Shown: positions 26,453-30,413 of the stretch, piece by piece | How the letters are laid out: the number at the start of each line of letters is the position of its first letter | Numbering within the stretch: position 1 is the first letter of the stretch | Origin: Microbacterium sp. Se63.02b | Lineage (GTDB): Bacteria > Actinomycetota > Actinomycetes > Actinomycetales > Microbacteriaceae | Direction of reading: 5' to 3' | NCBI RefSeq assembly: GCF_014171575.1 | Contig: NZ_CP050453.1 | Location: forward strand, 1,612,001-1,676,000 | Length of the DNA: 64,000 bases | Translations under genes and position numbers: made by a program | The notes under the pieces: generated by a model | Seen by the model: only the letters and a program-made list of their open reading frames with translations | Database searches by the model: none | Told to the model about the DNA's origin: nothing

Positions 26453-27339
26453 CCGAGGTGCGGCGCGCCACGACGACGAGGCTGCGCATCCTGCCCGCAC
26501 TGCTCGTGTGCGCCGCGGCCCCGGCGTTCTTCGTGCTCGAGATCCCGTGGCTGGGGTGGGCGCTGCTGGCGCTCGGCATCGGTGCCTCGTGGCTGCTCGA
26601 GCGCGGCCGCCACGCCGAGGATCAGGTCGTGAGCATGGGAGCGCGTCGGGATACCGCGAAGGTGCTCGGCGTGCATCGCCCGCCCTCGCTCACCCGCGAC
26701 CTGTCCCTGATCGCCGTCGGTCTGCTGATCGTCAGCATCATCCCGCTCGCCGCCGAGCTCGACAACCTCGCGATGCTGCGGTTCACGCTGGCTCTGGGCG
26801 GGGCGGTCGCGGTGCCGTATGCGATCTCCCGGTTCGTCTACCGCGACCGTGCCATCGGCTTCCCGTGGCGGACGCATCGGCGCTGGGGTCGGCTGCAGTG
26901 GGGCTGGCTCGTGGCCGTGCTCGTGTTGGGCTGGCTGATCCTGCCGTTCTACTTCATCACCAGCGGGGTCTACCAGAACTGGCCGGTGGTCGACACGCCG
27001 GACCTCATCGCGCGCCTCTTCGTCGGCGTCGGCGCCGTCGGCATCTGGGACGAACTCTTCTTCATCTGCACGGTGTTCGCCCTCCTGCGCCGTCACTTTC
27101 CCGACCTGCTCGCGAACCTGCTGCAGGCGATCGTGTTCGTGTCGTTCCTGTGGGAGCTGGGCTACCGCGAGTGGGGACCGTTGCTGACGATCCCGTTCGC
27201 GCTCCTCCAGGGCTACATCTTCCTCCGTACGCACTCGCTCGCCTACGTCGTCACCGTGCACCTGCTGTTCGACGCCGTGGTGTTCGCCGTGCTCGTGCAC
27301 GCACACAACCCCGGCCTCCTGCCGATCTTCCTCGTCTGA
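26449..27339 (+). CDS. CPBP-family intramembrane metalloprotease-like protein
   Basis: 296 residues from the GTG that overlaps the trmB stop. About eight hydrophobic helices are visible. The GIWDELFFICTVFALLRRHFP segment fits CPBP/Abi motif 1, although the usual Glu-Glu pair is Asp-Glu here, and VTVHLLFDAVVF carries the motif-3 His. Family members are intramembrane proteases linked to prenylated proteins or bacteriocin immunity. Protease activity is uncertain with the changed first acidic residue. Confidence 0.7.
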   Translation: MTEVRRATTTRLRILPALLVCAAAPAFFVLEIPWLGWALLALGIGASWLLERGRHAEDQVVSMGARRDTAKVLGVHRPPSLTRDLSLIAVGLLIVSIIPLAAELDNLAMLRFTLALGGAVAVPYAISRFVYRDRAIGFPWRTHRRWGRLQWGWLVAVLVLGWLILPFYFITSGVYQNWPVVDTPDLIARLFVGVGAVGIWDELFFICTVFALLRRHFPDLLANLLQAIVFVSFLWELGYREWGPLLTIPFALLQGYIFLRTHSLAYVVTVHLLFDAVVFAVLVHAHNPGLLPIFLV

Positions 27340-27393
27340 GGGGCGGCGAGAGCTCAGGTTGCCGAGCGGTCGTGGGGACGAGAGAATCAGGCC

Positions 27394-27786
27394 ATGCTCA
27401 TCGTCGGACTCGTCCTCGCCGCAGCCGCCGCTGCGTTCCACGTCTTCATCTTCGCGCTCGAGTCGCTGAGGTGGACCGAACCGGAGACGAGGAAGATCTT
27501 CGGTGTCGCGAGCGAGGCGGACGCCGTCACGATGAAGCAGCTCGCCTTCAACCAGGGCTTCTACAACCTCTTCCTGGCGCTGACGACGCTGCTCGGCATC
27601 GGCCTGGTGATCGTGGGCGCGCAGACGGTCGGGCTGACCCTGGTGTTCGCCGGCACCGCCATGATGCTCGCCGCCGCGCTCGTGCTGGTGCTCTCGGACC
27701 GGACGAAGGTGCGTGCGGCCGCCATGCAGGGGACGCTCCCGCTGCTCGCGGTCGTCGTGACGGCCATCGGGGTGGCCGCCGGCTGA
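27394..27786 (+). CDS. DUF1304 family membrane protein
   Basis: 130 residues with four membrane helices. The family marks are the early HVFIFALESLRWTEPETRKIFG segment and NQGFYNLFLAL. DUF1304 proteins are small, widespread and uncharacterised. It stands alone between the CPBP protein and the DNA polymerase gene. Confidence 0.85.
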   Translation: MLIVGLVLAAAAAAFHVFIFALESLRWTEPETRKIFGVASEADAVTMKQLAFNQGFYNLFLALTTLLGIGLVIVGAQTVGLTLVFAGTAMMLAAALVLVLSDRTKVRAAAMQGTLPLLAVVVTAIGVAAG

Positions 27787-27840
27787 GAGCCGTCCCATTC
27801 CCGGGGTGACAGCCGCGCCGGTACCCGTCACACTCGATGC

Positions 27841-28917
27841 ATGGCCGACTGGGTGCTGCACGTGGACATGGATCAGTTCATCGCCGCCGTCGAGGTGCTC
27901 CGAAGGCCGGAGCTCGCAGGGCGGCCGGTGATCGTCGGCGGCCGTGGCGACCCCACCGAGCGCGCCGTCGTGTCCACCGCATCGTACGAGGCCCGCGCAT
28001 TCGGCATCGGCTCTGGCATGCCGCTCAAGATCGCCGCCAGGAAGGCCCCCGAGGACGCGGTGTTCCTCCCCGTCGACCATGAGGCGTACGGGATCGCCTC
28101 CGGGGAGGTCATGGCAGCGCTGCGTGCCCTGCCCGACGTCGTGGTCGAGATCGTCGGTTGGGACGAGTGCTTCCTCGGCGTCTCCACCGACGATCCGGAA
28201 GGGGTCGCGCGCGCCGCGCAGGCCGCTGTCCTCGAGGCGACGGAACTGCACTGCTCGGTCGGCATCGGCGACAACAAGGTGCGCGCCAAGATCGCGACCG
28301 AGTTCGGCAAGCCCGGCGGGATCTTCCGGCTCACCGCGGAGAACTGGTTCGAGGTGATGGGCGCCAAGTCGACCCGTGATCTGTGGGGCATCGGCTCGAA
28401 GGTGCAGAAGCGTCTGGCCGCGCACGGGATCGCCACGGTTCGTGACCTCGCCGATGCGGACGAGCAGACTCTCATCGCGGAGTTCGGACCGCGCATGGGT
28501 GTCTGGTATCACGGACTCGGATCCGGCCTGGGGCCGAGCGTCGTGGACGACACCCCCTGGGTCGCCCGCAGCCACAGCCGTGAGACGACGTACCAGGAGA
28601 ACCTCACCACACCCGAACAGGTCGAGTCCGCGGTCCGGGAGCTCGCCGTGCAGGCGTTCGACGACTGCGCGGCGGAGGGCCGACCCGTCGTCCGTGCGCA
28701 CCTCAAGGTCCGCTACGCGCCCTTCGAGACCAAGACGTCCGGCCGGAAGCTGCCGGCCCCCACCGGCGACCGGGACGAGTTCGTCGCCGCGGCGCTCGCA
28801 CTCGCGGCCGCCCTCGACGTCGACCGGGAGGTGCGTCTGCTCGGCGTGCGTGCGGAGATGACGATGCCCGACGCGGCGGACGACGTCGAGCGGACACCCG
28901 TGCGCGGGAGGATCTGA
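27841..28917 (+). CDS. Y-family DNA polymerase, DinB2 type
   Basis: 358 residues. The palm has DMDQF (Asp9, Asp11) and the second acidic pair lies in GWDECFLG in place of the SIDEAYLD of canonical Pol IV. SVGIGDNKVRAKIATEFGKPGGIF and the helix-hairpin-helix region LWGIGSKVQKRLAAHGI follow. The position of the aromatic steric gate (E. coli Phe13) is Ile14 here, as in mycobacterial DinB2, which has Leu and takes up ribonucleotides. No QLxLF-like clamp-binding tail is visible; the protein ends shortly after the little-finger domain. Confidence 0.88.
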   Translation: MADWVLHVDMDQFIAAVEVLRRPELAGRPVIVGGRGDPTERAVVSTASYEARAFGIGSGMPLKIAARKAPEDAVFLPVDHEAYGIASGEVMAALRALPDVVVEIVGWDECFLGVSTDDPEGVARAAQAAVLEATELHCSVGIGDNKVRAKIATEFGKPGGIFRLTAENWFEVMGAKSTRDLWGIGSKVQKRLAAHGIATVRDLADADEQTLIAEFGPRMGVWYHGLGSGLGPSVVDDTPWVARSHSRETTYQENLTTPEQVESAVRELAVQAFDDCAAEGRPVVRAHLKVRYAPFETKTSGRKLPAPTGDRDEFVAAALALAAALDVDREVRLLGVRAEMTMPDAADDVERTPVRGRI

Positions 28918-28964: not shown

Positions 28965-29360
28965 CGCGGATCACCGCGGCCACGGCACTCACCTCGATGA
29001 GCGCCCCCGGTACTCCCAGACCCGCCACGAGCGCCGCCGTGACCAGGGAGGTGCGCCGTCGCGTGCGAGTCTCGCACCGACGGCGCCGTACGCGGCGCGA
29101 AGGTCGGCATCCTGGTGGATCAGGACGGTCCAGCTGATGACGTCGTCGAGTCCTGCGCCAGCGGATTCCAGCGCTATGCGCGCGTTCTCCACGGCGCGGA
29201 GCGACTGCTCTCCGGCATCCGTGGAGACGACGGCACCGGTGGCGTCGACCCCGTTCTGGCCGCCGACATAGATCGTCGTCGCTCCGGGCGGCACGACGGC
29301 GACGTGACTGAACGCAGGGCTGACGACGAGCCCCTCCGGCTGAGTGAGTGTGATCTCCAT
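28960..29360 (-). CDS. RidA-family protein (frameshifted)
   Basis: About 133 residues from the ATG at 29360. It follows the RidA/YjgF pattern: FSHVAVVPPGATTIYVGGQNGVDATGAVV, then VDATG and the helix QSLRAVENARIALESAGAGLDDV, and ends with a VPGALIEVSAVAAV strand. The frame changes at DGAPP/LVTAALVAGLG near 29056, where one C is missing from a CCC run. RidA-type proteins deaminate reactive enamines or imines, although subgroup members vary and the canonical Arg is replaced by the GALIEV form here. Confidence 0.8.
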
Positions 29361-29412
29361 GTGCACACTCTGCTCCGGAGGACGGACAACGGTAACCCCG
29401 ATGTCGCGGGGA

Positions 29413-30388
29413 TCAGAACCGCAGCAGGACCTTGCCCACGCGTCCGGGGCATTGCTCGCCTGCACGGCGGCACGGATGTCGGCGGCGTCGAAGGTCGCAG
29501 CGACCGGAAGGGTCAGCGTGCCGTCGCCGATCCGCTGGAACAGTTCGCCGAAGAGCTCGCTGCGGACGGCGGGCTCGAGCTGCGGGATGACCTTGCTGCC
29601 CCAGAATCCCTTCACCGTCGCCTGTTTGAAGATGACGTCGGAGGAGGCGATCTCCATCGTGGGGAGTCCATGGCGCCGAAGGCCACGAGCGTGCCGCCCT
29701 CCGCGAGCAGGGAGAGCACGTCTCCGGCGGAGGAGCCGCCGACGGAGTCCACGCCCGCCACGATCGGTGCTCCGCCGGTGAGCGCGGCGACCTGCTCGCG
29801 CCAGTCGTCCTGATCCGTGGCGACGACATCACCGATGCCCTGTGTGCGGAGTTCGTCGACCCCCGCGGTCCGTCGGACGAGGCCGAGGACCCGGACACCG
29901 CGTGCGGCGCCCAGTTGGGCGAGCATGCGCCCGACCGCCCCGTTCGCCGCGTTCTGCACGATCCACTCGCCCGGCTGCACGTCGAGGAAGCGCAGCAGGG
30001 TGATCGTGCTGAACGGCATCGACACGAGCTGGGCCGCGCTCTCGTCCGGGAGGGAATCGGGAACGTGGATCAGGCCGGCGGCGTCGGCGAGGAAGTACTC
30101 CGCCCACGCGCCGAACGTGCCTCCGGTCGCCACGCGCTGACCGACGGCGAGGTGCTCGACCCCGTCGCCGAGAGCGTCGACGATGCCGAGCGCCTCGGTG
30201 CCGGACGCGGCGGGCAGTTCCGGGGTGAAGCCGTACGTTCCGCGGACCGTCCACAGGTCATGGTTGTGGATCGGGGAGAGCAGCGTCCGAAGACGCACCT
30301 GGCCGGCGCCCGGCACGGGCAGCGGACGCTCCTCGACGTGGAGGACCAGCTCGGGATCACCGAACGTCGGATGGATGAGTGCGCGCAT
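29413..30388 (-). CDS. Zinc-type alcohol dehydrogenase/quinone-reductase-like protein (two frameshifts)
   Basis: About 325 residues from the ATG at 30388. It is an MDR-superfamily reductase: MRALIHPTFGDPELVL start, ASGTEALGIVDALGDGV, and nucleotide-binding VQNAANGAVGRMLAQLGAARG. It resembles MECR/2-enoyl thioester reductases rather than zinc-containing ADHs; no cysteine zinc site is visible. Frame changes near 29664 (AMDSP/TMEIASSDVIFKQ) and 29436 (DAW/GKVLLRF) each need one restored C or G. It follows the MarR gene on the same strand and is probably its target. Confidence 0.8.
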
Positions 30389-30413
30389 GGGGTTTCCGTT
30401 CTTTCGTGAGAGT

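Follow-up and report, generated by a model that had tools for sequence, protein, structure and literature searches.

Does a DinB2-type polymerase that carries isoleucine at the steric-gate position use ribonucleotides as freely as its mycobacterial relative? The question is raised by a gene of Microbacterium sp. Se63.02b, located in the 64,000-nucleotide stretch of DNA analysed here (the window). The gene is an ATG-initiated open reading frame on the forward strand (27841..28917) without internal stop codons, and it encodes a dinB2 (dinP)-type Y-family DNA polymerase of 358 amino acids. An earlier note on the window had singled out the gate residue and supposed that the enzyme is permissive like the mycobacterial DinB2.

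The family assignment is clear. The window protein passes the NCBIfam model NF002883 with 522.8 bits at a cut-off of 330, as does the DinB2 of M. smegmatis (600.9 bits), and it stays under the own cut-off of each of the remaining nine models listed. Both Pfam matches, PF00817 (129.5 bits) and PF11799 (64.1 bits), are over their cut-offs. In a search of PDB sequences, the four best entries, at about 1e-98, were all sequences of MsDpo4/M. smegmatis DinB2, followed by the next entry at 2e-38. An AlphaFold2 model built from a 48-row alignment has a mean pLDDT of 87.6, and Foldseek ranked 6jum, 6jul, 6juo and 6jun at the top for this model, with 6jum first.

Comparisons were made across a sample of DinB2-like proteins. 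The pool contained 313 loci, two matches (G394 and G546) being left out of it, and was reduced to 285 by setting aside L001-L003 and 25 duplicates. Removal of L139, which has no N-terminus, and of L231-L233, which are aromatic at the gate and less than 40% identical, left 281 rows. These include the short rows L228, L229 (190 aa) and L230 (299 aa), and 12 rows with an internal stop in translation. Microbacterium is heavily represented (105 distinct rows), part of the sample consists of the best 80 of 125 relatives, and ten DinB2 loci that were found again (L335-L344) do not enter the count.

The catalytic residues are invariant in this sample. The codon for Asp9 lies at 27865..27867 (+), and aspartate occupies this column in 281/281 rows and in E. 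coli Pol IV. Asp108-Glu109 of the GWDE motif (28162..28167, +), which the earlier note had taken as a cue for DinB2, are likewise conserved in all 281 rows, so that the cue holds. In the M. smegmatis enzyme, the D107A substitution is described as leaving no polymerase activity (PMC10159617). The residue that follows the catalytic glutamate is more variable: Cys110 (GWDECF; codon 28168-28170) recurs as cysteine in 63/281 rows, all 63 from Microbacterium, and outside this genus the residue is usually alanine (214/281 rows in all).

The C-terminal tail (residues 345-358; 28873..28914, +) is modelled with a pLDDT below 50 and contains no clamp motif. A search of the last 60 residues for QL[SD]L[FL] gave no match in the 281 rows, and two looser Q-containing patterns matched 3 rows each; both of these patterns are absent from the whole length of the window protein. 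This agrees with statements in the literature that DinP is without a beta-clamp binding motif (PMC12926913) and that DinB2 has no predicted clamp motif (PMC10159617). The match to NF002883, the grouping with M. smegmatis DinB2, the non-aromatic gate, the lack of a clamp motif and the catalytic residues D9/D108/E109 thus place the protein in DinB2/DinP, as had been suggested from the sequence with regard to both type and tail. It is not a canonical Pol IV of the E. coli type, since Ile14 is not aromatic and the clamp-binding tail motif is absent. At the putative filter residue it also departs from the ribonucleotide-adept M. smegmatis type, described as having no polar filter (PMC10159617), since Thr46 replaces Cys47. 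The protein is an ordinary DinB2, from an already known family of error-prone repair polymerases.

The gene is under purifying selection. Estimates of dN/dS were obtained for 8 pairs (4 further intended pairs were duplicates removed earlier), with values of 0.12-0.17 in comparisons with four close congeners and 0.26-0.34 with four more distant rows, one of these (L071) belonging to the other Microbacterium lineage. One might suspect a decaying or inactive gene, given that DinB2 is patchily distributed (a match at E 1e-60 or better in 73/149 genomes of the genus) and that neighbouring genes in the assembly contain frame breaks. This is very improbable, however, in view of the intact reading frame, the invariant catalytic residues, the dN/dS values well below 1 and the colinearity of the protein with its congeners over all 358 residues.

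The frame breaks themselves are found at 28966-30406 (-), where the genes look frameshifted when compared with L234, in which the order is intact: the sequence of a zinc-dehydrogenase-type gene is divided among three frames, and that of a RidA-like (PF01042) gene among at least two. The DinB3-like gene L002 of the host aligns in frame to its reference only up to residue 203. Together with a completeness of 92% for the single-contig genome, these breaks suggest indel errors in the assembly, and dinB2 itself is colinear.

Immediately upstream, separated by 54 bases, lies a DUF1304 gene (27394..27786, +; PF06993, 99.7 bits), and co-transcription of this gene with dinB2 is possible. The order Rce1-like (CPBP-type) gene, DUF1304 gene and dinB2 was observed in 35/49 named Microbacterium loci with flanks of up to 4 kb. 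We considered SOS regulation and rejected it as a candidate. When at most 3 mismatches are allowed, the LexA-box pattern has no match at 27273-28645 and hence none just upstream of dinB2; across the window it has 75 matches compared to a shuffle expectation of 41.6, which makes it non-discriminating for this sequence. A phage origin was also rejected, since the gene holds one conserved place in those 35/49 loci; 39 phage records were matched, each at less than 60% identity, the best of the 20 listed reaching 34%. Among plasmid records there were 6 matches with an E value of 1e-40 or better, the best being from Tsukamurella (62%). A 250-kb plasmid of Tsukamurella tyrosinosolvens (NZ_LR134447.1, L427) carries a DinB2 gene with a Leu gate and a Thr filter, with a metallo-hydrolase gene between dinB2 and uvrA.

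Turning to the gate, a MAFFT alignment that included E. coli Pol IV from NC_000913.3 places Ile14 (ATC; 27880..27882, +) in the column of Pol IV Phe13 and M. smegmatis DinB2 Leu14. A phmmer alignment also pairs Leu14 of PDB entry 4dez with Ile14, and these two results and the exact coordinates of the reading frame confirm the position that had been assigned to the gate. No aromatic residue offers itself as an alternative, which was the proposed check on that claim: the column contains Ile in 198 of the 281 rows, Leu in 52, Val in 20, Gln in 11 and an aromatic residue in none. A sequencing error is an unlikely source of Ile14, which recurs in 104/105 distinct Microbacterium homologues, the 105th being without its N-terminus. 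The codon at the gate is ATC in 192 of the 198 Ile rows. Clustering at 82% gives Ile in 79/140 clusters, and without the Microbacterium rows the sample would be less rich in Ile.

The earlier note had also regarded an Ile gate as uncharacterised. This is partly correct, in that we found no biochemical test of an Ile-gated DinB2 in the open-licence literature searched, but the polymorphism itself is not new, because Leu, Ile and Val had already been described at the gate of actinobacterial DinB2s (Ordonez et al. 2014, PMC4176160). Their Ile- and Val-gated examples comprise Arthrobacter aurescens, Beutenbergia cavernae and others; Microbacterium is not on the list, the gate residues named there being Leu, Ile and Val.

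A glutamine gate (DLDQFQ) occurs together with a Cys filter in 11/281 rows (L212, L214, L218, L219, L220, L222, L223, L224, L225, L226 and L227), all of family code f22. The same combination was seen in a Nocardia farcinica protein (L426, NZ_LN868939.1) that passes NF002883. By title, a literature search listed no study of glutamine-gated DinB2 enzymes.

The gate observation alone merits little; what is added here is the retained filter residue. Thr46 (ACC; 27976..27978, +) stands in the column of E. coli Pol IV Thr43 and M. smegmatis DinB2 Cys47. The polar-filter residues, reportedly assigned by Johnson et al. 2019, would be Thr43 in Pol IV and Cys47 in MsDpo4, and in our alignment the two fall in one column. 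The PDB sequences, consistent with such a series of mutants, cover four states of the M. smegmatis enzyme: Leu14/Cys47 (4dez, 6jul, 6jus), Leu14/Thr47 (6jum), Tyr14/Cys47 (6juo, 6jur) and Tyr14/Thr47 (6jun). The C47T substitution reportedly lowers rNTP use sharply. Two residues have been made responsible for sugar choice in the DinB2 family, and the use of rNTPs by M. smegmatis DinB2 was credited to a missing polar filter combined with a permissive gate (eLife 2023, PMC10159617). The polar filter is described as binding the 3'-OH (and triphosphate) of the incoming nucleotide, thereby forcing a clash of the 2'-OH (PMC9130138, PMC7084774).

Across the 281 rows the filter residue is Thr in 254 and Cys in 27. 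Jointly, gate and filter are Ile/Thr in 198 rows, Leu/Thr in 36, Val/Thr in 20, Leu/Cys in 16 and Gln/Cys in 11; the 140 clusters formed at 82% within each state are distributed in the same order as 79, 30, 17, 7 and 7. All 27 Cys rows belong to family code f22, which also holds 2 Thr rows (L095 and L162).

The evolution of the two positions was traced on a DinB2 tree built without the gate and filter columns, a quick tree without bootstrap. A branch with SH-aLRT of 100 unites 141 rows, including M. smegmatis DinB2 and the window protein; outside it are E. coli Pol IV, the host paralogues and L231-L233. The M. smegmatis enzyme is placed within the Cys group, and the window protein on another DinB2 branch. 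The clade of the latter is grouped with Georgenia, Cellulomonas, Intrasporangium and further members of the order, and not with the other Microbacterium lineage; the branches that connect it to them have SH-aLRT values of 80-89. Parsimony gives 1 change for the filter column and 27 for the gate column (Gln included), counts that are lower bounds. Residue 14 thus drifts among Ile, Leu and Val while Thr46 is almost fixed in the family, and the ribonucleotide-adept mycobacterial DinB2 looks like a derived exception.

For reference, we examined a set of 86 aromatic-gate rows, comprising 81 Y-family proteins from the class and 5 references, in which the filter column underwent at least 12 changes by parsimony. 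The 81 proteins were the matches down to E 1.7e-34 in 59 genomes, weaker ones being excluded, as were the DinB2 census loci and the Y-family genes of the host itself. They carry T/S at the filter in 54 cases and A/G/C in 27, counts that retain L425, which is without the usual motif in the filter region, and L416-L418, which have an altered triad. In the latter three (L416, L417 and L418), the catalytic column reads D-E-E rather than D-D-E in the alignment, and the filter residue is Cys. Scaled by tree length, about 8 filter changes would be expected in DinB2 and 1 was seen (rough Poisson 0.003). As many as 55/339 columns change no more often than the Thr46 column, however, so constancy of this kind is not rare in DinB2. 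Furthermore, with a single clade and one T-to-C change, this is an argument from constraint, with no replicate for a covariation test.

How, then, is the sugar chosen? On balance, we consider it just about probable that the window protein is an active translesion polymerase of the DinB2 class without a clamp motif in which the sugar is selected mainly by the filter, and for which the sequence predicts less use of rNTPs than in M. smegmatis DinB2. Templated synthesis would proceed independently of the usual clamp motif, and the enzyme would insert dNTPs and tolerate distorted substrates. Through the 3'-OH and the triphosphate, Thr46 would hold the incoming nucleotide to the enzyme surface, so that the 2'-OH would clash despite the missing aromatic gate. 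The use of rNTPs would accordingly fall below that of M. smegmatis DinB2 (Leu14/Cys47) and above that of a polymerase with both devices. As the proposed filter residue missing in M. smegmatis DinB2 is retained as Thr46, the window protein may be choosier than first thought. The permissiveness supposed at the outset agrees with the aliphatic gate, but it had been deduced from the gate alone and did not take into account the replacement of Cys47 by Thr46; carrying over the 8-oxo-nucleotide behaviour of M. smegmatis DinB2 would likewise be an extrapolation.

It is nevertheless conceivable, if somewhat doubtful, that an aliphatic gate alone makes the enzyme ribonucleotide-adept like M. smegmatis DinB2, whatever the filter residue. 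The bulk of Ile is close to that of Leu. In M. smegmatis DinB2, L14A left rNTP use intact and L14F alone "squelched" it, and F23L turned DinB1 into a vigorous RNA polymerase (PMC4176160). The closure of a filter-less enzyme to rNTPs by L14F alone implies that the gate can dominate. The polar-filter model is itself disputed: in the 2023 Pol epsilon study, 3/20 proposed hydrogen bonds were strict and a steric-sensor model was preferred. Rev1 is a poor selector despite having both gate and filter (PMC9130138), and the conservation of Thr46 may serve triphosphate binding instead of sugar choice. A 2026 survey (PMC12926913) also calls DinP/DinB2 naturally ribonucleotide-adept, with the 2014 study of the M. 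smegmatis enzyme as its reference for the group. Yet these mutants come from backgrounds that differ from the window protein, which has Thr46 in a column nearly fixed in its clade. M. smegmatis DinB2 is filter-less, and DinB1 has Gly at the filter in each of ten f22 genomes, so that F23L was probably also made in a filter-less background, judging by these relatives, among which the M. smegmatis DinB1 sequence itself is not included.

Sugar choice could also still reside at residue 14, if the beta-branched Ile were itself a sufficient steric gate. Ile and Val together account for 218/281 rows, as might be expected in that case, but with its 27 changes the column shifts readily between Ile, Leu and Val, and L14A was without effect on rNTP fill-in synthesis by M. 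smegmatis DinB2 (PMC4176160), so that small side chains at position 14 are no block there. We therefore regard it as improbable that Ile14 is a sufficient gate.

Selection by the filter, if correct, has a wider meaning. We tentatively propose that the DinB2s outside the mycobacterial-type family are natural filter-only polymerases, and that the ribonucleotide-adept mycobacterial enzyme is derived, having lost the filter too. By the same tentative reasoning, the steric gate was given up, the near-invariant Thr selects the sugar, and Gln gates occur as well in the lineage that lost the filter. Nature would then offer all four combinations: gate only, filter only, both and neither. If 254/281 sampled homologues keep the filter residue, calling DinB2s ribonucleotide-adept in general may be a mistake for the greater part of the clade. 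The engineered Thr47 construct 6jum has its natural counterpart in the window protein, whose combination of gate and filter residues allows the question of whether a filter can replace a gate, disputed between two structural models, to be tested directly.

Among the known systems, the closest is M. smegmatis DinB2/MsDpo4 (4dez, 6jul and 6jus; mutants 6jum, 6jun, 6juo and 6jur), which has about 50% identity to the window protein and the same fold. The two share the match to NF002883, an aliphatic gate and the catalytic residues, whereas the window protein has Ile14 for Leu14 and Thr46 for Cys47, the threonine being as in 6jum. The Ile-gated actinobacterial DinB2-like proteins of Ordonez et al. 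2014 agree with it in gate residue and phylum, a comparison that concerns the gate and not the filter residue. E. coli Pol IV (DinB) has the Y-family fold and the filter threonine (Thr43) in common with the window protein, but differs in its Phe13 gate and in having, at the C-terminus, the clamp-binding motif LVLGL (PMC3096655), for which the window protein has no counterpart. Two further matches to the Y-family model were identified in the 4.08-Mb genome of the host, with gate and filter residues Tyr/Ser (L001) and Tyr/Ala (L002). The DinB1 (DinX) and DinB3-like paralogues, with an aromatic gate and Gly or Ala at the filter, are the reverse of the window protein: in the ten f22 genomes, DinB1 is Phe/Gly in 10/10 and the DinB3-like paralogue Tyr/Ala in 10/10. 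The DinB3 label is given by resemblance; L329, which is among these ten, passes a different model (NF003015). E. coli Pol IV (Phe/Thr) thus has both devices, as does L001 of the host; DinB1 and the DinB3-like proteins have the gate only, most sampled DinB2s the filter only, and the mycobacterial DinB2 neither.
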